From: Scedosporium boydii | Taxonomy: Eukaryota; Ascomycota; Sordariomycetes; Microascales; Microascaceae | Assembly: GCA_002221725.1 (NCBI GenBank) | Contig: NJFT01000010.1 | Coordinates: forward strand, 62,001 to 126,000 | Direction of reading: 5' to 3' | DNA length: 64,000 nt | Part shown: positions 39,393-60,982 of the stretch, piece by piece | Layout of the letters: every line of letters starts with the position of its first letter | Numbering within the stretch: position 1 is the stretch's first letter | Program-made: the position numbers and the translations under genes | Notes under the pieces: generated by a model | Told to the model about the DNA's origin: nothing | Databases searched by the model: none | What the model saw: the letters and a program-made list of their open reading frames with translations, nothing else

Positions 39393-40736
39393 CTAGATCA
39401 CCTTTACCGTCGCGACTTCAGATGAAAAAAATAGATCGTAAGGGTCTACACCCCTAGTATACAACTTCTGGACCCCAATCCCAACACGCTCGTACGTTTC
39501 TAGCGGCCCTCCGGGTTTTCCAACGCGCTTAAGAACGAGATACACGCTGCCAATTTGGGCAAAGTTTGGAAGGAGTATCTGGCTAGAGTCATGGGTCCAC
39601 TCGTAAGACGACAGCCTTAGGCAAGCGTATTCTGTGTCTCGTGGCCAGGCACAGCACCTTGAGAGGCACCGACCGACGAACCAGCATCTTGCTGTCTGCC
39701 CTTGTCTCTCGATTGTGGGAGGTTGCTCGATGTCGAGAATGATTCGCCACGTTCTTAAGGACCCGGTTCGAACTAATGCTGGTAGTTTCCGGTTCGAGGC
39801 ACCAGCACCGCAGAAGGAGTAATCTAAGACATTGGTAATGAAGGACACGTCATCTTCATCATGCAGTATAGCGAGTTCCACGGGTACAAGTGCGCCAGTC
39901 AGTATCATATGTGCGTTTTCGATAGCGCCATGGGGGTTTCTTGCGTCCACTAGCGTATATAAAATCTCTCTAATGACCACGTCGCTGGCACATTTCGAGG
40001 ACTCAAACGATTTTGAGACTCCAATCTCATGTTCAAGGGTTCCCAACGTAACCGGGCCGTCAATGGATGCCCATGACCACGTTGGTGCACAGTAGGTTGA
40101 GTATCTTGCGTGGCGACTGTGACCTGAACTCGCTAAAGCCCGTTGATCAACCATCCATCCGAGGCTTGGAATCAACGACCCCCTCCACATCCCGGCGATA
40201 TATTCACGGTTCGAATGAATGACCATTGGTTCCACGTGAAAGGAGATGGCGGTTCCATCCACAGTCGTCGTGGTCTGGCCGTCAACTCTTCCGCTACCCT
40301 CGATCAACCTTTGGAAAGCCTTGGCGAGACCAGACAAGGCAATGAGCTTGTCCGTCGATTTCGTTAATGAACGCGTGGAATATTGGGCCACAAGATAGCG
40401 CCACTCATGGTAGAGTCTATGTAGTTGGTGGCCGTCACGGCGATGTACGAATCTCTGATCGCCAGCGTGAAACTGGTCTTGTATGGCACCACCGTCTCTA
40501 TGGCCGCACTCGCATAGCGTTCTTTCCACGCAGGACCAAGAGAGCTCACACTCATCAGGGTCATCCTGGATGATGCAGAGGGCATCGACCCAGATATAGG
40601 ACGCGCCGAGTCCAGCACAAACTTGATGGCGTCTTGGCTTCCCGCACCTTTCCGCCTTGCCCCTCCAATCTAAACCAGGAACCCGCCACCATCCCGCTTC
40701 TAGTTTTGCACCTTTGTACTTCGTAGTGCTATTCAC
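39393..40736 (-). pseudogene. HET-domain (heterokaryon incompatibility) gene, decayed
   Basis: The longest frame (447 codons) carries pieces of the HET domain, including YIWVDALCIIQDDPDE. A later part (RSLTKSTDKLIALSGLAKAF) and the YCAPTWSWASIDGPV block typical of HET proteins follow. Between DDPDE and RSLT the family's usual 150-200 residues shrink to about 65 that do not fit. Just before YIWVDAL, the conserved DAIKFV stretch is in a different frame. The N-terminal part of the domain is missing and no convincing start exists. So the gene has frameshifts and an internal deletion. HET proteins trigger cell death on fusion between unlike individuals, and such genes are often lost or broken. Confidence 0.72.
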
Positions 40737-41148: not shown

Positions 41149-42375
41149 TTAGGTGAGGATTGATAGCCCGAGCTCCGGCCAGTAACCCGACATATCAAAC
41201 ACCTTTTTCATCTTCCGCAAATCACCCTCAAGTTCACCCAGAGCTTCCGCGGGAAAGAGCCAAAACCCAACGGCCGGCCTCACAGCCTTTGCGAGGTCCT
41301 CCGGACTTTCGACCGGGGGCTCCTTTTTCTCAAACATCCTCACCATGGGACGCCATAGTCCGTGCTGGCCGGCGAGCCAACTCTTCTCCTCGTCTCTGAG
41401 GGAGAGGAACGCCGTATCGGCATTGTAAATCAGGTCGCGCGAGGGCCCGCTGTCAGCAAAGAGGACGCGCTCCCTGGGTGGGTGCTCCCGCTGGATGCGC
41501 CACGACTCCATGACCTGCCGCCATCGTACACGCATCATTCGGGGGTCCGAGCAGGCCGTCATGACGTAGCCCAAATCCGGTGCAATGGACCTCGGATCGC
41601 GCGGCAGGAGTTGGAAGAATGGCATGCTTGGCTTGATTGGCATGGAGCGATTGAATCGGACTCCGACGTTGCGCTCGAAGCCTTGAAACGGGAAGATTCT
41701 TCGCCCCGCCGGTGAGTGGGCTACCCAGATGATCTCCTGCACCCGCGATAAGAAGTGGATAAAGGCCGCTGTCGTGGGTCCCTGGGGAATTTCCGGCAGC
41801 GAATGTAGACCCGTCATAGTGTTAGCGGCTAACGCGATATTGAGAAGCCCGACATCTTCCGGGTCATGCGCTTTGACATCATGGATGAAGTCTAAGAGAC
41901 AGGTTGCATCAGATCCGTCTGATGTTAAGTGCAAAAAGTCGTATTCGGGATTAAGGTAGAGTATCCTCCGTATGGCCTCCTTGCGGTGATAGGACTCGCT
42001 AGACTTCCGAAAGTCAAACGGTATATGAACACGGTAGAACCGGAGTGCGACGCTGCGTGATTCGCGATTCACACGCAACAGTAGACTGTGTAGCCGGACA
42101 CCTTGTACCGTAGCAGTGTAGTTGCGACCGCTGACGATCTTGTTGAGCCGATTTACGGTCGAGTATAACAGACTGCTCGCCGAGCCCCGCACACGCCTTC
42201 CTGTGTCTGAGGGGGTTGCGACTTCGACCTCGAGTAATCGATATTGCCGCAAAGAAAACTGCCAAATTACGGCCCGGAGTTCCGCTGGGAGTAAAGGGAA
42301 TCGCTGAAACACGGCGTCTTGGTCGCTAGAGTAAGGGGTGTTTATAATCTGCATATGATGCGGAGGAGGCGCCAT
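41149..42375 (-). CDS. 2EXR-domain protein
   Basis: Single exon, 408 residues. The N-terminus has FPLLPAELRAVIWQFSL, the first strand-helix of the 2EXR domain, an F-box-like module expanded in filamentous ascomycetes. It is followed by LRVNRESRSVALRFY and then a long divergent part typical of the family (LNPEYDFLHL, FIHFLSRVQEIIWVAH). There is no signal peptide or membrane span. No reaction is known for the family. The F-box-like resemblance suggests protein-protein contacts, perhaps in ubiquitin ligase complexes. It lies between the HET relic and the secreted Cys/His protein, all on the minus strand. The spacer of 339 bp to the upstream gene should hold its promoter, which includes the inverted repeat TGTAC-GGA-GTACA. 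Confidence 0.8.
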   Translation of the reverse strand: MAPPPHHMQIINTPYSSDQDAVFQRFPLLPAELRAVIWQFSLRQYRLLEVEVATPSDTGRRVRGSASSLLYSTVNRLNKIVSGRNYTATVQGVRLHSLLLRVNRESRSVALRFYRVHIPFDFRKSSESYHRKEAIRRILYLNPEYDFLHLTSDGSDATCLLDFIHDVKAHDPEDVGLLNIALAANTMTGLHSLPEIPQGPTTAAFIHFLSRVQEIIWVAHSPAGRRIFPFQGFERNVGVRFNRSMPIKPSMPFFQLLPRDPRSIAPDLGYVMTACSDPRMMRVRWRQVMESWRIQREHPPRERVLFADSGPSRDLIYNADTAFLSLRDEEKSWLAGQHGLWRPMVRMFEKKEPPVESPEDLAKAVRPAVGFWLFPAEALGELEGDLRKMKKVFDMSGYWPELGLSILT

Positions 42376-42714: not shown

Positions 42715-44283
42715 CTACGACGGACGCTCGAGAGTAAACTGAGGCGTGCCCCCTGGTCTGAGTAGGATCTCGCCCGTCTGGCTAAACGGGTGGACTTCGC
42801 GTTGAACAATGCCGCATCCTACTAGGCGTTGCAGCGCTCCTTGAATACTCGTGTAGAATGGCTCCAACGCTCTTGCCTCGCCGTCCATGAATTCCCAGTC
42901 TTCTTCTTCCACGCCCTCTTCCGCCCAGTTAGCCCTGGTGTTGGGGATGTATATCCAGCCCCTCATATTAGTCAATTGAGCCTCGAGTGTGAGGTCTAGG
43001 AGCGTGTTGAACGTCTTTCGGATCTCTCCAAAGCCTTCGGCTCCGAGGCCGATGTGGGCTAGGAAAGTGGTGTCCCCGTTGGTTTTTTGAGCAGTACCCG
43101 TCACTGCGACTCCAACGCAGGTACCATATCCGCGTGACCACAAGTCTTTCCCACCTCTCTTAGTTCCCAGAACTCCACCCATTGGGACCTCATTGAATGT
43201 ACCTGCTGGCGGTTCGGCTCGGACCTCGAGGTTTCGCGATTCGAGATCTCTCATGGCCTTTTGCGGTGGGCCGGTCATAGGCGTGCTACAGTGCCGCATA
43301 AGAGTCTCCAGGATTGCCGCGCTGGGTGGCTCGAAACCTAGGTCGAATCCGCGCTTGGTGCGACGAGGAGTCTTTTTGTTGTTGTCGTTGTTGGGTCTGC
43401 TGCACGCGTTGGGGGCGCCGCCGTTATCCTTGTCCCTGTTGGGATCGTTGGACCTGTCAGGGGGATTGCTCTTTGGCGGCGGATCGGGCTTTGGATCCAT
43501 CTTCCTGCAACCCGCCTTGTTCTTCCGCAGACACCCCACGCTCGTAGCTGTCGAGTCAGGGGCGTTGGTAAGGCCGCCAAAGACCATGAAGATGTCAAAG
43601 TTCCAGTCTGGAACGCCGCAGGCGGGACCGACCCAACCACCAAAGAAGTTGGCAGCTTCGCCGCCATTTTCGAGGATTGTCTTGGCGCCCTGGACGGCTG
43701 CCTTCATACCTTCGCTTGCAATCCTGGCCTCGAATCCCACTGGAGTGGCGAGGGACCCGACTTCCAGGATTGTGTCAAAGACCTCGAGGAAGACGGCGCA
43801 TATAATGTTGTCTAACTTCGCCAGTCCATCGATGACTTCATTCAGAAAGAACTCAGCCACCTCGGTGATGCCTTCGCAGACGCACACGCCAGGCGTGAAA
43901 TCGTTTCCGTCATCGTCTTGCCAAACGATGCTCGGATCAATCTTATCTTTGGATTCTACAGGACCTCGACACTGTGACGTGGTATTCATTAGCAGCTTTA
44001 CCAAACTATACAAAGGTCCCGTGTTTGAAAAGAGCCAACCTACAAGAACCGGCCCATCTTGCTTCTGGACTTCTTTGCAATACTTGACACATGGACGCGC
44101 TGCCCTGTCCGGATCGTTGAGGTCAAAGTAGGAGAAGCACGAGCCAGTCTTTTCCCATGCTGCAATGGTCTGAGAGTCAGGCTGTCTTTCACGGCGTGTA
44201 ATGGCACGCGATACCGAGGGTACAGCATCAACTACAGTGGAAGTGATGCTGAGAGCGAGGAGAATTGGCAGAGTGAGCTTCAT
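42715..44283 (-). CDS. secreted multidomain protein with kexin sites and CheD/CNF1-like Cys-His core
   Basis: Single exon, 522 residues. Residues 1-20 form a signal peptide (MKLTLPILLALSITSTVVDA). The N-terminal part to about 255 has several cysteines and helical stretches. Residues 256-310 are a low-complexity Pro/Asp/Asn/Lys linker. Dibasic kexin-like sites occur at 30-31 (RR), 310-311 (KR) and 375-376 (KR). After the last one lies a compact domain with GTCVGV (Cys389), then FLAHIGLG (His410). This small-x-Cys-Val-x-Val ... His-x-x-Leu layout resembles the active sites of CheD, CNF1 and YfiH-like cysteine hydrolases/deamidases; the spacing of 21 residues is in the same range. I infer a proprotein whose last 146 residues may be a secreted enzyme. 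I cannot name a family; the CheD-like reading is a hypothesis. Confidence 0.75.
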   Translation of the reverse strand: MKLTLPILLALSITSTVVDAVPSVSRAITRRERQPDSQTIAAWEKTGSCFSYFDLNDPDRAARPCVKYCKEVQKQDGPVLVGWLFSNTGPLYSLVKLLMNTTSQCRGPVESKDKIDPSIVWQDDDGNDFTPGVCVCEGITEVAEFFLNEVIDGLAKLDNIICAVFLEVFDTILEVGSLATPVGFEARIASEGMKAAVQGAKTILENGGEAANFFGGWVGPACGVPDWNFDIFMVFGGLTNAPDSTATSVGCLRKNKAGCRKMDPKPDPPPKSNPPDRSNDPNRDKDNGGAPNACSRPNNDNNKKTPRRTKRGFDLGFEPPSAAILETLMRHCSTPMTGPPQKAMRDLESRNLEVRAEPPAGTFNEVPMGGVLGTKRGGKDLWSRGYGTCVGVAVTGTAQKTNGDTTFLAHIGLGAEGFGEIRKTFNTLLDLTLEAQLTNMRGWIYIPNTRANWAEEGVEEEDWEFMDGEARALEPFYTSIQGALQRLVGCGIVQREVHPFSQTGEILLRPGGTPQFTLERPS

Positions 44284-48448: not shown

Positions 48449-50031
48449 ATGGGCAAGAAACAACCCCAGTCACTGCCCCCAGTGGCCACTGACAAGGTCA
48501 TACCGCTCAACTCCTACGATGACAATGATGTCAACGCCTCAATCGTCATGTACTTTATGATCCGCTTTGACGATATCCTCGACCCCGAGAAGTTGCGCGC
48601 CGCGTTCGAAAAGCTTTTGAACCGGGAAGGGTGGAGGAAGTTGGGCGCAAGGCTCAGGATCAACGTAAGTCGTGGCCCAACTTCGAATTGTTGTCGCTTC
48701 AACCCGTTTCCCGTTGCTTCAATAGCAATTATTAACCCGTTGATTACCAACAGGCTGCCGGCAAGCTGGAATACCACGTCCCCGAACAGTACGGCGAGAA
48801 GCGCCCCGCCTTCGCCTACAGCCACGTCAACCACGACATGCCCATCGCGAAGCACCCCCTCGGATCCCAGGTCCCTAGCGGGTACGCGGGTGAAGGTCCA
48901 TCAGTCGTGTTCGAACCAAGAAAGGTCGCGGATCTGGCGGGCATCGAGACCGGGCCCAGGGTGCTGGCGGACTACGTCGGGCAGGACAGAGGCCAGCTCG
49001 GCCTCCACATCGAATCCTTTACCGACGTGACCTTGGTCACGCTGAACTGGTTGCACACTCTGTGGGATGCCATGGGTCGGAGAGAGTTCCTCCTGTCGTG
49101 GATCGCCATCCTTGAGGGCCGCGACGACGACGTGCGCCCCTTCCACGGCTTCGATAGCGACCCGCTTAAGGAGCTGGGACTGCACCCCAAGGAACCCTAC
49201 GAGCTAGCCAATCGCAGACTCTCCCTATTTCAACTCATCATCTTTGGACTCCGACGCTTCTGGGAGCAGTGGAGGCACGAAGAGGGTAGTCGAGTTCTCT
49301 GCGTCCCTAGTTCTTTCTTGCAGAAGCTTCGCGAGCAGGCTATGGCCGATCTCAAAGAAGAAGCCGCCAAGGACGGTCGCAAGGTCGACGAAGACTTCTT
49401 TCTCAGTGATGGCGACCTGCTCTTCTCTTGGATTGGTCGCTCCATCGTTAAGCACTCGCCCATCAGGCACAGCCGGACCATAGCCTTCTTCAACGCCTTC
49501 GGCATGCGTGGCCTCCTGCAAAAGGACGGCACGCTACCTTCAGATGAGGCCTACGTCTCGAACTGCGTAACCTCCGTATATACCCTCGTCTCCGCCGGCG
49601 ACGTCGTGAACCGTCCCCTCGGCTACACCGCATCGAGGATAAGGCAGACCCTCAAGGTGCAGGGAACGCGCGAGCAGCTCGAGGCCGGTCTGGCTCTCAT
49701 CAAGGAGTCGTACGAGGCGACGGGCTATCCTGCCCTCTTTGGCGACGCCACCATGCAAATGGTGATTCTATCCAACTGGTCCAAGGCCAGATTCTTCGAG
49801 ATGGACTTCTCCGCGGCCATCGTCGAAGGGTCGGGCGACCCGTCCAGGGAGGGTTCGAAGAAGCGCGGCAAACCTACTTATATCCAGCCTCTCGGCTACT
49901 CGGACTACTCGAAGAGGTGCGCGTTCAACGTGTCTGGGAAGGATAATGACGGTAACTACTGGCTGGCCGGTGGTTTGAGGAAAGCGGCCTGGGAGCGCAT
50001 GGAGGAGGCCTTAAAGCGCGGTGAATACTAA
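48449..50031 (+). CDS. acyltransferase, trichothecene 3-O-acetyltransferase/BAHD-like
   Basis: Two exons, 48449-48664 and 48754-50031, with an 89-nt intron; 497 residues from MGKKQPQ (the frame opens 36 nt earlier, at 48413). The N-terminus VIPLNSYDDNDVNASIVMYFMIRF and then LREAFEKLL-like AAFEKLLNREGWRKLGARL are typical of fungal members. The catalytic HxxxD motif is HTLWD (173-177), followed by AMGRREFLLSW. The second half shows NRPLGYTASRIRQTL and a C-terminal DFSAAIVEG in the place of the BAHD DFGWG motif. It would transfer an acyl group from CoA to a hydroxyl or amine of a metabolite. It is the nearest gene to the polyketide synthase, 2.6 kb from that gene's 3' end, and is a candidate tailoring enzyme for its product. 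Confidence 0.85.
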
Positions 50032-52643: not shown

Positions 52644-55600
52644 CTAATCTTCTGCCCGCGAAAACTTCTCACTCAAAAGGCCACTCTTCTCAACAACCTT
52701 GTATCCCACCAGCTGCAGCGAAGGCGCCTGTAAGATATCAAACACTGGAATATCCGCCTTAAACTCCCTCAACAACCAATTGCGCACCTCTACCGCAACA
52801 AGCGAGTCCACGCCATACGCCGAGGTAGGAGACGCAGCGTGGATGTCTTCCAAGGGAATCATAAGCGCCTTGGAGAGCTTCTTGAGGAGCGCATCTACGA
52901 CGATGGCAGCCGCGGCGTCGATGGACGTGGCCTCTTCCAACTGCTGCACGAGGGATACCTCCGCATCAGTCTTAGAACCAACGGTGCGCGCCCGCATCAT
53001 GCGCAGATGAGAAAACACGGGCTCGTTGAACCAATGCGGAATCTCGTGTTGTGTACGGTCGAAATATGCCTGCGTGCCGAGACCCGTGACGAACTGGCAC
53101 CTCTTCTCGCCGTCGTTGATGTTGCTCCCTTCCATGGCGATGCTCATCATAGCGAGGAATTCCTCCTCGTCGATCAACACGAAACCCCACCGAGACAAAT
53201 TGTTTTGCGTCGCACCTTCAGTCTCAGCGACATATCCCACCGACTGGATCATCCCGAGATCAACGACGGTTGCCGGGAGACCGCGGGAGGTGCGATAGTA
53301 GGCGAACGAGTCCTGGAATGCGTTGGCTGCGGCATAATTGCCTTGCGATAGATCACCGATCGTGCCGGCCGCGCTGGCGAGCAAGACGAAGAAGTCGAGT
53401 GGCTGGTTGAGAGTTGCGTTGTGGAGGTTCCATGTGCCGTGCACCTTTGGTCCAATAACTTTGGTGAAGGTCTCGTACGGCATATTGGCAAAGACTCGGT
53501 CCTGCGAAGCAAGCGTCAGTCAGCAAGTTGCATCATTACTGGAAAAGTTCGGTTAGGAGGAAGGGGTGTGGGACTTACCTCCAAGACCATGGAGGCCTGT
53601 ATCACTCCACGGATTGGCGGCAGCTCGGCTAACGCAGCACCCAAGGCGTTTTGTAGTTTGTCTTCATCCACGACGTCGCAAGCCAGGACGCGGACATTCG
53701 CACCGGCAGCCTCGAGCTCGTCGACTAGAGCTTGAGATTCCGTTCGACTTGTGCCGGACCGAGATACGAATATCAAGTTCCTAGCACCATGCTTCACCAT
53801 GTGCCGGGCGAGGCATCTACCTAGACCACCAAACCCACCCGCGAGCAGGTAGGATGCGTTGGGCTCAAACTTGTAGCCCGTTTTCTTTCGCGGGACGACC
53901 TAGTGACGTGATACATTGTTAGCTCGGGCACAAAATAAAACACAACTAACCTTGGCAACTTGAGAACCACATCGCAGAGAGATACAGATATACTAACCGG
54001 AACAATATCATCATGTTGCGGGGTCAAAACCACTTTGCCCATGTGTTTGCCCATCTGCATGTACCGGAATGCCTCTTCCATCTTGGAGAACGGGAACGTC
54101 GTGATTGGGGTGACGACGCCGATGCTTTCGTCGCGGAGAAGGGCCATGACACTGGTAATGAGATGCAAAGCAAGGTCCCGGCGTTGCTTGAACATCACCG
54201 TCAAGTCCACAGATGCAAACGTGACATTTCGAATGAAGGGCGCCATTCCGATGTGCGTGTTTTCCTCGATATCCTTCTTACCAATCTCGATGAATCGGCC
54301 GAAGGGTGCGATTATCGACCAGGATGCCTTGAGTGCCTCTCCCGACAGACAGTTGAGAATCACGTCGACGCCTTTCCCGCCCGTCTGGCGCTTGATGCCC
54401 TCTGCGAAAGAAAGGTTCCTGCTTGAGAAGATGTGGCTCTCGGGGATCCCGTACGTCGCCATGATGTGCTCCTTCTTTTGCTTCGTGCCGACCGTCACGA
54501 ATACTTCAGCACCGTAGAATTGAGCCATCATGATTGCGGCCTGGCCGACTCCACCAGCTGCAGCGTGGATTAGTATCGATTCCCCTTTGCGGATCCTCGC
54601 TTGATCGACCAGCGCGTAGTACGCCGTGCAGTACACAACGGGAATAGCAGCCGCAGTCACAAACTCCATGCTATCCGGAATCCTCTGGACCAGCTTGGCC
54701 GGGTTCTTGACGGAATTGCTGTAGCCTCCCATCGTCCAGGCGCAGACTCTGTCTCCCACTTTGAGGTGTGTCACCTCGCTGCCAATCTCAGTGACGATTC
54801 CGCTGCATTCGCAGCCGAGGAAGCCATCGACTAGCTGGCCCATGCTCACCATGATGTCACGGAAATTCAAGCCGACGGCGCGGACGTCGATCGTCACGTA
54901 GTCAGGTGGCAATTGCATGGGACCGGTTGGGTCATCGATGAAACGGAGAGTGTCAAGGAGACCAGGCACGGCGATGTCCAGGGTCAGTGGCCGATCGGGC
55001 TGGTAGAATGGCTCCATCTTTGTTTCAAGCCCCGAGGTCGCTTTGCCGCTCAATTCGGATATTCTGGCATCAAGGCTGGCCCCCTCCAAGCAACGCTTGA
55101 TGTAGATATGTCCTCCCTTTTCAGAGTACTCCGTGTCTTCCTCGGCAGCAGCCCTGGCCGACAGAACCTTTTCCAGCACCAAGTAGATTTTATCAAAACA
55201 TTCTGTTGCGGAGAGAGGGCTGTCGGTAGAGAAATCTAGCGTTATAAAAGGGAGTCCTGGGTGCTCTCCCCGAAGAGTTCGAGCAAGGCCATGAACAAGG
55301 GCGGCGTCCGGGTTGTTGGCTTCTTGAGACCCGCCCACCGTCAACCACAGGAGGCCTGCGGCTTTGTCGAGGACTAACTTGAGCTGTTCGAAATCAGCAG
55401 GGCTGATATCTTTAACAAGAGGCTGCCACATTTCAGCTTCAAAGATGCAGATCGCCGAAGTCAGCTCCTCTTCCGAAAGCTGTGAAACTGGCTTGGCTGA
55501 GGACGGAAGGCCCTTCTCTGAGAGTCTCTGTTGTAAACCTGCGACGAATTCTCCCTCTCCGTCAGCACGAATTTCCGTCGTTATGATGATGATGGACGGC

Positions 55601-58600
55601 GATGAACTTGCAAGCTCGCCGTTTGATTTGGGAGTTGGTGTGTCATGAATTGCTTCAGCAACCATGAGCCGACCGCATTGCAGACGAGAGTCACGATGAT
55701 CAGGGATACTCAAACTCAAGCCCCCAAACCCACACTTTCCGAGGACAGAATCCCAGGTCGCCTCATCCATCGTCGGGCCCCAAGGCCGGAAGTCCTCCTC
55801 CGACATCCACCATCCGGGAAGCGTGCCGAAAGGAAGGAAGCCTCGATTGAGAACTTGCGTCATCTCCAAAAGAAGGAGCTTGCCTCCCTCTTTCAATAGC
55901 TTTCTCACGTTCAAAATCGTATTGCTGATATTTGCAGTCGCATGCAGCACGTTGAAGGCCACGACGACGTCAAACTTTTCGTTCTCGGCAAAACCTTGCG
56001 ACACCGCGTCTTGCTCGATGTTCAACTTTCGGTACCGAATCAAGTCGCCCCAGTCACGGAACTTGTCTTGGGCCTTCTCGAAGAAGCCCGAGGAGATGTC
56101 TGTGTATGTGTAATCCTCGAACCTGGGATAGGTGCCTTTGTTGCCTCCCAACGCTTGGAGAATGGGCAACGTTGCTCCTCCGGTGCCCGCTCCAATCTCC
56201 AGGAACCTAAGATTGGGATGCTTGTGTGAAAGCAGGGTGATGTACTTTCCGAGCTGCGCATATGTGGTTGCCAAGCCTAATGCGTTTTCGTAATACTTGT
56301 AGAGAAGATCTCCCTCAAGCATTAATGCAAGAGGGTCAACATCGCCCTTTAGGATGCATGAGAGACTCTTCCCCACTCGGCAGAGTAGCATGGCTTCGTG
56401 GTCCGCAGACTCCACCGTAGAAATTAGATTTTCCATTTGTTCCTGGACTTCTGGTGTATCGAACTGCAGCCATTGTGCGGTTTGATGAGCTACCTTCCCG
56501 GAAGAAAGCTGCTCGCGGTGGTGTTGCATGTATCGGTATAATTTCTGGTGATGGGGCTGGACGACTTGGCTCTCTTCCACCTCCTTTAAAGCTTTCTGGT
56601 AAAAGTAGGACGCAACCATTTCCAGAGTTCCAATATAATCTGGTGACGTATCAGCAACACCGGTGTCCCCCAACAAGGCTTCCACCTCATCCTTTCCATT
56701 TAGGTCGAGATCTAGCGCCCACTGGACATCGAAACATAGCTTCTTCTCATCACCAGAAGATGCTCCATCCTCTCCGTGGTCACTCGATGTGACTGCCGTG
56801 CATCTCAAGCCCTGAACAGTCACAACAGGATTCTTTGATAGAGTATCCCGAACGTATATCGTACCAGAGGCCTGTCGGTATCCCGCAAAGGCAGCTTCAC
56901 TAACAGCTTCCAGTTCGAATCCAGGTTTATTGGCGGCGACCGAGTTCGAAACCTCGATTTTCTGAATGAATGTCGGCATGTACGCTTCCTTGATGTTCGA
57001 CCGGGTCAGGGCTGGGAAGAAGCTCTGTAGGAAGGCGTCGATGGTTGCGGGGTGGAGGAGATGTTCATGCTCGTACTCGAATGGCATCCCTTTCTTGGTA
57101 TCGGGAATCGTGATGGTGGCTGTGGCCTTGCCAGTTCCGTATGAGATGTTGGTTAGGTTGCGGAACGTTGGCCCGAAGAGAAGGCCGATGTTGGTGAGCG
57201 TTTCGTATACCTGAGATGTTGCAACCGGAGTTGTGCATTGCTTCTTGGTGCTGTCAAAGTTCTCGTCGTACCACGTAGTCGCCTCCTTGCTCTCTCGACC
57301 GTCGTCGACTACATCAGGCTGCTTCTGGGCGAGGGTGACTGTAAAGACGCCCCGACAGTGTTCCTGAGTTTCCCCAGGAGTCGAAAATGAAAAGACGCGG
57401 AACTCCTTCCATACATCGGACGAAGTCTTGCTGCTTGACCTCAGCGGCCTTACTTCGAACATGACTTCCACACCGGCGTCTGTCTGCGGGACTACAAGCG
57501 CTCGAGATATCACTATATCGGTAATGGTGTATCCGGTGACCCTCTCTTCGTCCTGAGACGATGTTAGTTGTCGAGCTGCTTCCAAAGCCATAGCGATGTA
57601 TCCGGCAGCAGGATAGATTACGGTGTCCTGGACCTGGTGATCCTTCACCCAAGGCTGTTCTTTGATGCGGATGAAATTCCTCCATCTTGGCTCTGTGGGA
57701 TTCCAGTCCGAGGCGGGCGCCCCGAGGAAGTCGATACGAGGAGCTGATCGGAAGCGATAGTCTGTGCTTAATCGCGATTCCATCCAGAATTTCTTGTGAT
57801 TCCAAGAATAGGAAGGAAGGTCAACAAGCACTTGGGGAGTCGAGGAGCTTTGCACGGGCTCGTTTGCTCTTTGCAGGCGGACAGAGACGCCGCGGGTCCA
57901 AAGCGATGCGGCAGCCTCTAGGGACGTTTCGCAGGCGTTTCGACCTCTGATGAGCGCCGAGAAATAAGAGATTGATCGATTGGCCCCAGACGAAGCTTTT
58001 TCCAGGGCCGACGAGACGATCTGCTTGACTGGTCCGGCGAGCGCAGAATGTGGGCCGATCTCGACGAGAATGGAAACAGGGCTTCTACCACCTCCAGTTT
58101 CCAGTGATTTTCTTGTCCTCGAGGAGGTGCCGCTGAGAAGTAGAGATTCGAGGCCTTCGGAGAATCGGACGGGAGAGAGCAGGTTGTCCACCCAGTACTG
58201 CGCGCCGAGGTCCACGTCCGCCGTGGAAGCGCAGGTCACTGTGGAGATCATCTCGCACTTCTGCAGGGTAGAAGCTTCGCGGGTTGGGATCTCCAGTTCA
58301 CCCAGAAGCTCGAGATACTGGCTCGCCACGTCCTTCATATGATGAGAGTGGTAAGCTGTTTTGACTTTCAGCTTCCTGGCAAAGATGCTCTCGTCTTCTT
58401 CTTTGATCATGTTCTCCATCGCTTGGATTGCAGTCAAGTCGCCCGATAGGGTAACGTTGGACGGGCTATTGATGCAAGCCACAACAAGCTTGCCGGAGGC
58501 GGGATCCAGTCGAGAGATTCTCTCTTGCGCATCCTGTGCAGAGAGACCACAGGCCATCATGGCACCTTCTTGCTTCACCTGCGACGACACGATTCCCCGG

Positions 58601-60982
58601 AAATATGCGACTTTCAGGGCCGAAGCAAAAGTCAGCTTGCCAGCTGCGTAAGCAGCTGCTATCTCGCCGCTTGAGTGTCCAATAACCATTTGCGGCAAAA
58701 CGCCCCAGTCGTTCAAGAGGTCGACCAGGGCGAGTTGCACAGCAGTGCAGGCGGGTTGGCTGACATCTGGGTCGTTGACCCGGGACGCTTCCTTGTCCGT
58801 GGGGATGATGACTTCGTCTATCAGGGACCAGGTACAACCCAAGGAAGCCAAGGTGTCATTTGCAAGTTGTATCGACTTTTGGAATACCGGATAAGACTCG
58901 AAGAGTTGCTTTCCCATGCCACACCATTGGGCGCCTTGGCCGGTAAACACGAAGGCGATACTAGGTGCCTGGTTTATCTTCACGGAAGAGTATGTGTTAG
59001 GAAAGAGTTTGAAGATGAACAATGAATTGGCCGGGGAATCCACCTACATCAGAACGGGTTGGACTTTGATTCAAGTTTTCCAGCTTAGTGGCAAGATTAT
59101 CCAGTGAGTCGGCAACCACGGAAACCTTGAAGGGCAAGGACGAACGCCGCTCCCCAAGCGTGTAGGAAAGGTTATTGAGGAAGGAAGCCTCGTCTTTTGG
59201 TCCTCTCGCGCCCTTCTGTTGCTTGAGATAGGAGGCATATGTTGCTGCTACCTGCTTTAAGCTGGTAGCTTCGTGCGCAGACCAGACGAATATCCGATGT
59301 TGGCTATCAGAGTCTGCAGTTTTCTGGTGGCCGTTAGTTTGGACACCATCGAATTCGATATGCGTGCCGTTGCCGTTAGTATGGCCATTAGCATGAGAGT
59401 GACCGTTAACACCATTTCCGTTAACACCACTGCCATTAACGCCGTTGCCGTTGACATTACCGTTGGTGTTCGTGACGGGAGTTAAGGGTTCATGTTCTCC
59501 TTGGAGACTGGGATTAACGGCAGTCCGGTGAGATCCCCTTAAGCCTCGCTGTTTCAGATAATTATAAGCATCATCTAGGATGGCGTGAACATTCGTGCCT
59601 CCGAACCCAAACGAGTTTATACCAGCTCTCCTGACTCCCGCAACCGGCCAGGGAGATAACTCGGTTGGAACACGAATTCTGCAGCCTTCAAAGTCAATCT
59701 TGTCGTTCCCGCGTTCAAAGTTAATATTTGGCGGAATCAATCCGTTCTCAAGAGTCAATACAGTCTTGATAACTCCGGCAAGACCACTGCATCCCTCCAA
59801 GTGGCCAATGTTTGTCTTAAAACTTCCAACGTATAGAGCATTTTCTCGGCCCTCGGGTCGATATTTGCCCAAAGCTGAGCCAATTGCGCCCGCTTCGATC
59901 GGATCTCCAACAATCGTTCCTGTTCCGTGCGCCTCGAAGTATCCCACGGCGGCAGGATCGCATCCGGCACTCTTATAAGCAGATGTGAGAAGGGCGTGCT
60001 GCGCTTCTCCCGACGGAAGCATAATCCCAGGTGTCCTTCCATCTTGGTTGGAGGTAGTTCCTCTGATGACTGCGCGGATGGTGTCGTTGTCTCGGATGGC
60101 ATCTGCCAGAGGCTTCAAGTATAAAGCGGCAATACCCTCTCCCCGAGAATATCCGTTCGCTCGATGATCAAACGTGAAACACCGGCCGTCGGGACCAAAG
60201 AAGCGAACATTGGACATGGCAACCATGGGATCTGGATTGAAGATGAGATTGGCGCCACCAACAATGGACGCCTTGCTCTCGCCGGCCCGGAGACTCTGGC
60301 AGGCGAGGTGAAATGCCACGAGACTGCTACTGCACGCCGTGTCGACGGTCAAACTCGGACCTTTGAGATCGAAGAAGTAGCTTATGCGATTGGATAGGAT
60401 GGCTGCTCCATTTCCGGTGCAGACATAGGCCGAAGACACCTCGAGGTCTCGGCTCAGCAACTCGTGGTAGTCTTTGGAAAAGCACCCGACGTAGCAGCTC
60501 GTATTCGAGCCCGCGAGCTTCTCCATCGGGACTCCGGCGTTTTCAACGGCCTCGTAGGCGCATTCCATCAATAGCCTCTGTTGGGGATCCATGCCCACCG
60601 CTTCGGCGGGAGAAATGGAGAAGAATGCGGCGTCGAACTCAGAAATGTCTTGCTCTAGAAAATGCGCCGCGCGGATGTTGAACTGCACACGCACACCGAG
60701 AATTGAGGGTCAAAAACAGTCTCAAGCGCTAGGGTCTATCGTGACAAGGGTTTAGCTTACCGATCCACCCCTGTCCGGGTCGGGGTGGTAAAACGCATCG
60801 ACGTTCATCCGACTTTTCGGGATCTCGGAGCGGCCCGAACGTTTGTTGGCGATCATTTCCCAGAATTTACTGGGGGTTGAGGCCCCGCCGGGCAATCTGC
60901 AAGCCATTCCCACGACAGCAATCGGCGGGAGGGCATCATCATCATGGGTGCCATTGGCGGTCTCTGGCGGCCGCGAAATCAT
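52644..60982 (-). CDS. highly reducing type I polyketide synthase (KS-AT-DH-MT-ER-KR-ACP)
   Basis: Five exons: 60982-60761, 60682-59048, 58977-53998, 53899-53579 and 53501-52644. All join in frame, giving 2671 residues. KS has Cys191 in VDTACSSS, His326 in EAHGTGT and His368 in NIGHLEG. AT has Ser721 in GHSSGE. DH has His1066 (VKDHQVQD) and Asp1266 (HPATIDAF). MT has LEIGAGTGG (1545-1553). ER has its nucleotide site AAAGGVGQA (about 2091-2099). KR has GGFGGLG (about 2299-2306), Ser2429 and Tyr2442 (GNYAAAN). ACP carries Ser2619 in GVDSLVA. There is no thioesterase, so release must occur in trans. An Asn/Gly-rich linker (about 478-525) separates KS from AT. All domains look active, predicting an alpha-methylated, strongly reduced chain. 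An alternative acceptor for exon 3 at 58968 would drop three residues. Confidence 0.96.
59327..59473 (-). repeat. Asn-Gly-rich repeat coding region in PKS linker
   Basis: Imperfect 6-nt and 12-nt repeats encode NGNVNGNGVNGSGVNG and then HSHANGHTNGNG between the KS and AT domains. The length is likely to vary between isolates by replication slippage without harming the enzyme. Confidence 0.8.

Follow-up and report, generated by a model that had tools for sequence, protein, structure and literature searches.

The 64,000-nucleotide stretch of DNA analysed here (the window) lies on contig C10 of a 42.9 Mb fungal assembly. Its minus strand, to which all coordinates given below for this gene and its downstream neighbour refer, carries an open reading frame of 522 codons (42715..44283) for a predicted secreted modular proprotein, P0001. 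In a protein search, P0002 from Lomentospora prolificans matched 98% of the ORF at 48% identity, and a paralogue of the window protein is encoded on contig C179 of the same genome; the frame is therefore more than a chance occurrence. The C179 paralogue is in turn 88% identical over 316 residues to SAPIO_CDS2402 of Scedosporium apiospermum. Residues 81–104 of the ORF are most likely intron and not protein. They are missing from the aligned relatives that cover this point, and the corresponding nucleotides (43972..44043) form a likely 72-nt phase-0 intron, in frame and stop-free, with a GTAGGT donor, a GCTAATG branch-like site and a CAG acceptor; the intron of the C179 paralogue (L007) sits at the same place and contains a stop. 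Splicing would leave about 498 amino acids and turn Cys389 and His410, discussed below, into Cys365 and His386; residue numbers throughout are those of the unspliced 522-codon ORF. Elsewhere in the window, polyketide-synthase-type KR and ACP domains are found at 52647–53483 with large ORFs beside them (52644–60694), a transferase-family gene lies at 48838–50031, and the ORF two places downstream from the proprotein gene (39393–40736) matches the HET (heterokaryon incompatibility) domain over 25 residues, at precisely the Pfam cut-off.

The predicted protein begins with a signal-peptide-like stretch recognized by eye (residues 1–20, 44224..44283; cleavage at about VDA before VP). It continues with a Cys-rich N-terminal domain, conserved in alignments and protein searches (approximately residues 35–260, 43504..44181), a low-complexity linker rich in Pro, Asn, Asp and Lys (approximately residues 261–306, 43366..43503), evident from the sequence and from alignment with relatives, and a C-terminal domain, referred to here as the tail (residues 350–522, 42718..43236). 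The signal peptide and the linker had both been described in an earlier note on this DNA, which was silent on the intron, on Cys490 in the tail, on the family-defining N-terminal half, on the exchange of tails and on the neighbouring 2EXR gene. The whole protein has no Pfam match and no match among PDB sequences at E-values up to 10.

Four dibasic pairs (30–31, 307–308, 310–311 and 375–376) form three clusters in the window protein, in line with the three sites claimed before. Release of the C-terminal domain had been assigned to the last of them, KR375–376 (43156..43161), with the domain starting directly behind it. Among the five proteins with the same type of tail (type A, see below), this pair is private to the window protein, its position reading QR in P0002, QD in P0013 and P0003, and QI in P0004; moreover, it lies inside the C-terminal domain, whose conserved region already begins at about residue 350. 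For these two reasons, a kexin cut at KR376 is unsupported, and the domain start has to be moved upstream. The pair at 310–311 (KR, 43351..43356) is KR or RR in all five type-A proteins. A second KR, 38 residues further on, occurs in all four type-A relatives and is absent from the window protein. As a predicted secreted fungal precursor with dibasic sites, the protein resembles the Kex2-processed repeat proteins (KEPs), as these are described in the portion of the literature used here; unlike them, it shows by eye no peptide repeats between its sites and no repeated peptide core among its four dibasic pairs.

Two protein searches, each scoring about 8,000 candidates, gave 10 and 21 relatives, 26 of them distinct, from Lomentospora, Scedosporium, Parascedosporium, Xylaria, Neoarthrinium, Aspergillus, Zopfia, Aureobasidium, Hypoxylon, Annulohypoxylon, Massariosphaeria and others. 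Adding two paralogues from the same genome and the window protein itself gives a set of 29, all of which fall into one BLASTP cluster by their N-terminal parts; this is partly so by construction, as most were gathered by that part. The piece on contig C271 enters the cluster through other members only, and is linked indirectly because part of its N-terminal half apparently lies on another exon. The order of elements throughout the family is the N-terminal part, a low-complexity linker, often KR or RR, and then one of several tails. Clustered by BLASTP (E 1e-3, at least 40 columns), the tails form three groups of 5, 7 and 11 proteins that no BLASTP link connects, with 6 proteins truncated or unassigned. 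Type A comprises P0001, P0002, P0003, P0004 and P0013 (one of them truncated), type C/D comprises seven proteins, of which the six that were aligned share [ED]HV.E.Q, and type B comprises 11 proteins with the motif C..DE[YFW]PP. We take the latter motif to be NucB-like; the NucA/NucB DNase model PF14040 matched none of these 11 proteins, whether at E 1 or at E 10, nor anything in the genome. Outside the three groups, P0007 clusters only with P0008, and P0016, P0018, P0019 and P0031 are singletons.

The genome that holds the window has type A twice (C10 and C179) and type C/D once (C271). Type-B sequence also occurs on C71 (L078:856-3146) and C230 (L079:1287-3139), apparently behind a different Cys-rich N-terminal half; if the pieces at each place form one gene, as we infer, this would apparently be reuse of the tail as a cassette. 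Between the two type-A paralogues, on C10 and C179, identity is 68% over residues 102–277, 37% over residues 261–511 (linker and tail) and 43% over the tail alone. Judged by sequence, then, the N-terminal residues, some 260 in number, define an unnamed ascomycete family with at least three kinds of tail that have no detectable kinship with one another.

A constant front with exchanged tails is, at the level of sequence, the architecture of bacterial polymorphic toxins, which likewise combine a constant N-terminal part with variable C-terminal domains, reuse the cassettes elsewhere and may have a partner gene downstream. Unlike these, the window protein is fungal and has a signal-peptide-like start, kexin-type sites and an unnamed N-terminal domain. 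At least 13 polymorphic toxin domains have been transferred to fungi, and Tox-CNF is recorded from gamma-proteobacteria only, according to the portion of the source available (PMC3482391). The family might instead be made of ordinary secreted hydrolases or adhesive proteins for nutrition or cell-wall remodelling, with tails swapped by fusion and with no toxin role, and the Aspergillus proteins P0007 and P0008, in which the N-terminal domain and linker are followed by no recognized folded tail, would suit such an origin. We consider this rather improbable, since three groups of tails behind one secreted domain, the faster divergence of the tails and a recurrent 2EXR neighbour (see below) would be unusual for nutritional enzymes.

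The earlier note had likened the type-A tail to the CheD and CNF1 hydrolases on account of a GTCVGV motif with Cys389 and an FLAHIGLG motif with His410, both of which are present. Across the five type-A tails, 26 of 93 gap-free columns are invariant, including Ser383 (43135..43137), Gly387, Thr388, Cys389 (43117..43119, the candidate nucleophile) and His410 (43054..43056, the candidate base). Invariance of the Cys and the His among homologues had been named as a test of the idea, and as both are invariant in 5/5 sequences the Cys–His proposal survives it. The tail itself has no Pfam, NCBIfam or PHROG match and no credible match among PDB sequences, where the single row (E 1.5) is a glutaredoxin-domain protein.

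Like the window tail, NTAN1, BLF1 and CNF1 combine Cys and His with Ser or Thr. The triads given in the accessible part of the source are Cys75/His92/Ser69 in NTAN1 and Cys27/His44/Thr21 in CheD, where the Ser/Thr orients the His, with a backbone carbonyl in place of the Ser/Thr in CNF1 (PMC7022378). Ser383, found in 5/5 type-A tails, fits such a triad because it stands six residues before the Cys, as the Ser/Thr does in NTAN1 and CheD; the Ser69/Cys75 spacing of NTAN1, as given in the same part of that source, equals the Ser383/Cys389 spacing. NTAN1 differs in its length of 310 residues and in an appended C-terminal region, by the same partial account (PMC7022378), whereas the window tail has about 170 residues and lacks that region. 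The active-site motif of BLF1 and CNF1 is L-S-G-C in the portion of the source used (PMC8960835); it does not occur in the type-A tails, which have Y/F-G-T-C instead.

For CheD, the receptor glutamine deamidase (PF03975), we took 24 bacterial or archaeal sequences from 50, of which 23 had a recognizable motif. Thr precedes the Cys by six residues in 19/23, and Ser or Thr directly precedes it in 23/23; the window tail likewise has Ser/Thr at both positions. Cys and His are 17 residues apart in 22/23 of these CheD sequences, compared with 21 in the fungal tail, and the window protein differs from CheD in being a secreted eukaryotic proprotein without a chemotaxis context.

The Cys may also have quite another role. 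Apart from Cys389, the window tail has a single Cys, Cys490 (42814..42816), a candidate for a disulfide, and both residues are invariant in the 4/4 tails that reach the latter. Two invariant Cys residues in a secreted domain suggest a disulfide, and a Cys389–Cys490 bond would take the nucleophile away. The tail would then be a non-enzymatic secreted domain with a binding, inhibitory or structural function, its GTCVGV...AH resembling CheD by chance. The relatives lean the same way, as they read GTCPGV or GTCPEV, both less CheD-like, where the window tail has GTCVGV, and do not score with the CheD profile. On the other hand, invariant Ser383, Thr388 and His410 around Cys389 are needless for a disulfide, and the tails of P0002 and P0013 contain a third Cys close to their ends, which also argues against a domain that is only disulfide-held. 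We regard this alternative as less likely than a hydrolase, but as a serious one.

Profile comparisons favoured CheD only weakly. The Pfam CheD model (PF03975) has no match in P0001 at E-values up to 10, and none in the whole genome. With a CheD profile, the isolated window tail came first among 574 open frames plus the family proteins, yet at a non-significant E 0.37 (E 1.7 for the whole window protein), and P0002, P0003, P0004 and P0013 gave no row up to E 100. A wider comparison with 1,596 pieces, in which the window frame was entered as a whole ORF, ranked it sixth (E 4.6). When the five tails were aligned with 27 CheD sequences by hhalign, the probability was 2.7%, and the Cys and the His of the tails were paired with those of CheD; among 200 column-shuffled CheD profiles, four equalled or exceeded the score, which the reversed profile did not reach. 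Conversely, the first half of the tail was made into an HMM and searched against about 1,640 sequences (about 1,590 frames, 24 CheD and 24 reversed CheD), and its top 18 contained 10 CheD and one reversed CheD. None of 100 column shuffles of it reached 10 CheD, and one of 100 reached the best score. This last result is not strong evidence, because the CheD sequences are mutually related and the frames are mostly non-coding. Both shuffle tests nevertheless run against a purely disulfide-held domain. The proposed CheD/CNF1-like hydrolase tail is partly supported by its invariant Cys and His, gains from Ser383 six residues before the Cys, and is favoured only weakly by the CheD profile; taken together, the resemblance of the tail to CheD is no more than suggestive.

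What looks like a small gene, spotted by eye on contig C255, provides a further lead. Its separate open-frame pieces (L085:2710-3462, minus strand) have a start that looks signal-like by eye; the first piece reads LSTYGLATCVGLAASGTAGHNG and has Thr six positions ahead of the Cys, and beyond an intron-like stretch follows VLAHCRC. Of all 1,596 pieces, this first one gives the window tail its closest match outside the family (phmmer E 0.031, BLASTP E 0.25); in a small set, its match to the window tail (E 0.029) is about as good as that to bacterial CheD (E 0.033). For the second piece there was no match below E 2, and genome searches with each piece found C255 itself only. The C255 gene may possibly be a stand-alone relative of the tail and a bridge to CheD.

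In CheD, the strand after the Cys and the His strand are followed by helix, strand, helix and strand. Two AlphaFold2 models of the tail, of low confidence (pLDDT 47.6 and 35.3), agree in a strand that begins just after the Cys, with the His in the next strand, and then helix-strand-helix-strand, so that these weak models place the elements in the same order as in CheD. Foldseek searches with the two models gave best E-values of 0.49 and 0.25, the first matches being a Top7 design and APOBEC3G, and no CNF1/YfiH-type hydrolase stood out in them. APOBEC3 chains appear repeatedly among the leading rows of both lists, one of which has RadC in second place, as would be expected if the tail had a deaminase/JAB fold related to APOBEC or RadC in place of the alpha-beta-beta sandwich of the CNF1/YfiH superfamily. 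These rows have E-values of 0.25–0.8 or worse on low-confidence models, and the motifs of those enzymes, HxE..PCxxC and HxH, are absent from the tail as judged by eye, which makes such a fold very improbable.

Directly downstream of the proprotein gene, on the same strand, lies a gene of the 2EXR family (41149..42375), with no signal peptide seen by eye. In Parascedosporium, one gene model covers a type-A protein and, behind it, a 2EXR protein with 34% identity to that of the window; as a single model spans both, the genes are probably adjacent there too. The genome has at least 31 2EXR matches. On C271, the type-C/D paralogue is followed after about 0.7 kb, in the same orientation, by a 2EXR gene that shares only the 2EXR motif with its counterpart in the window, and among the at least 31 genome matches listed none is on the contig of the C179 paralogue. 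The closest paralogue of the window 2EXR protein (48% identical, with internal stop codons) is on C31, where decayed pieces of a family member precede it (L081:3391-4037; N-terminal part E 2e-6 and tail E 0.015, in different frames); this pair was found only by looking beside 2EXR genes. A 2EXR gene thus adjoins two of the three family loci found by protein search in this genome, plus the decayed fourth. For a single locus, the chance that a 2EXR match falls within 1.5 kb is 0.0022, and for two of three loci it is 1.4e-5; as the window pair itself prompted the question, the fair count is one of two other loci, for which the same per-locus value gives about 0.004, a post hoc figure from a single genome. 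Among eight further 2EXR genes whose 5′ flanks were inspected over as much as 3.5 kb, C255, with pieces divergent to its 2EXR gene, was the only one besides C31 to have a candidate, and six of the eight showed none by eye. Most 2EXR genes examined do not adjoin the proprotein family.

The window protein is best described as polymorphic-toxin-like, probably with a CNF1/CheD-type hydrolase tail, on the evidence of family architecture and conserved residues. The reading that we prefer, tentatively, is that of a secreted modular proprotein of a fungal polymorphic-toxin kind, with an exchangeable effector freed by kexin, most likely a Cys-His(-Ser) hydrolase, and used in competition. The signal peptide would export the proprotein, and the Cys-rich N-terminal domain may serve export or docking. 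A kexin-type protease would probably cut in or after the linker at the conserved KR311, freeing the exchangeable C-terminal domain. The tail could then work like CheD, NTAN1 or BLF1, with His410 activating Cys389 to attack a side-chain amide of a target protein, and the targets of the effector may be other organisms or non-self strains. A more ambitious and doubtful proposal is an ascomycete toxin–immunity system, in which the secreted N-terminal domain would carry kexin-released, exchangeable warheads, a CheD/CNF1-type deamidase among them, and the cytosolic 2EXR protein would protect the producer. Among the best matches in the open-licence literature, we found no description of the N-terminal family, of a secreted fungal CheD-like tail or of the 2EXR partner, nor in the open-licence literature any study of the 2EXR family.

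The small size of the tails, and a family whose limits can be drawn from sequence, make the claim open to direct testing. Secreted proteins with a constant front and swappable tails would point to moulds fighting with proteins on the modular principle known from bacteria, and a deamidase-like domain, if secreted, would be a novel activity to search for where fungi compete or meet their hosts. The proprotein family would likewise offer a way into the 2EXR family, part of which, if the toxin–immunity reading is true, would consist of immunity or non-self factors.
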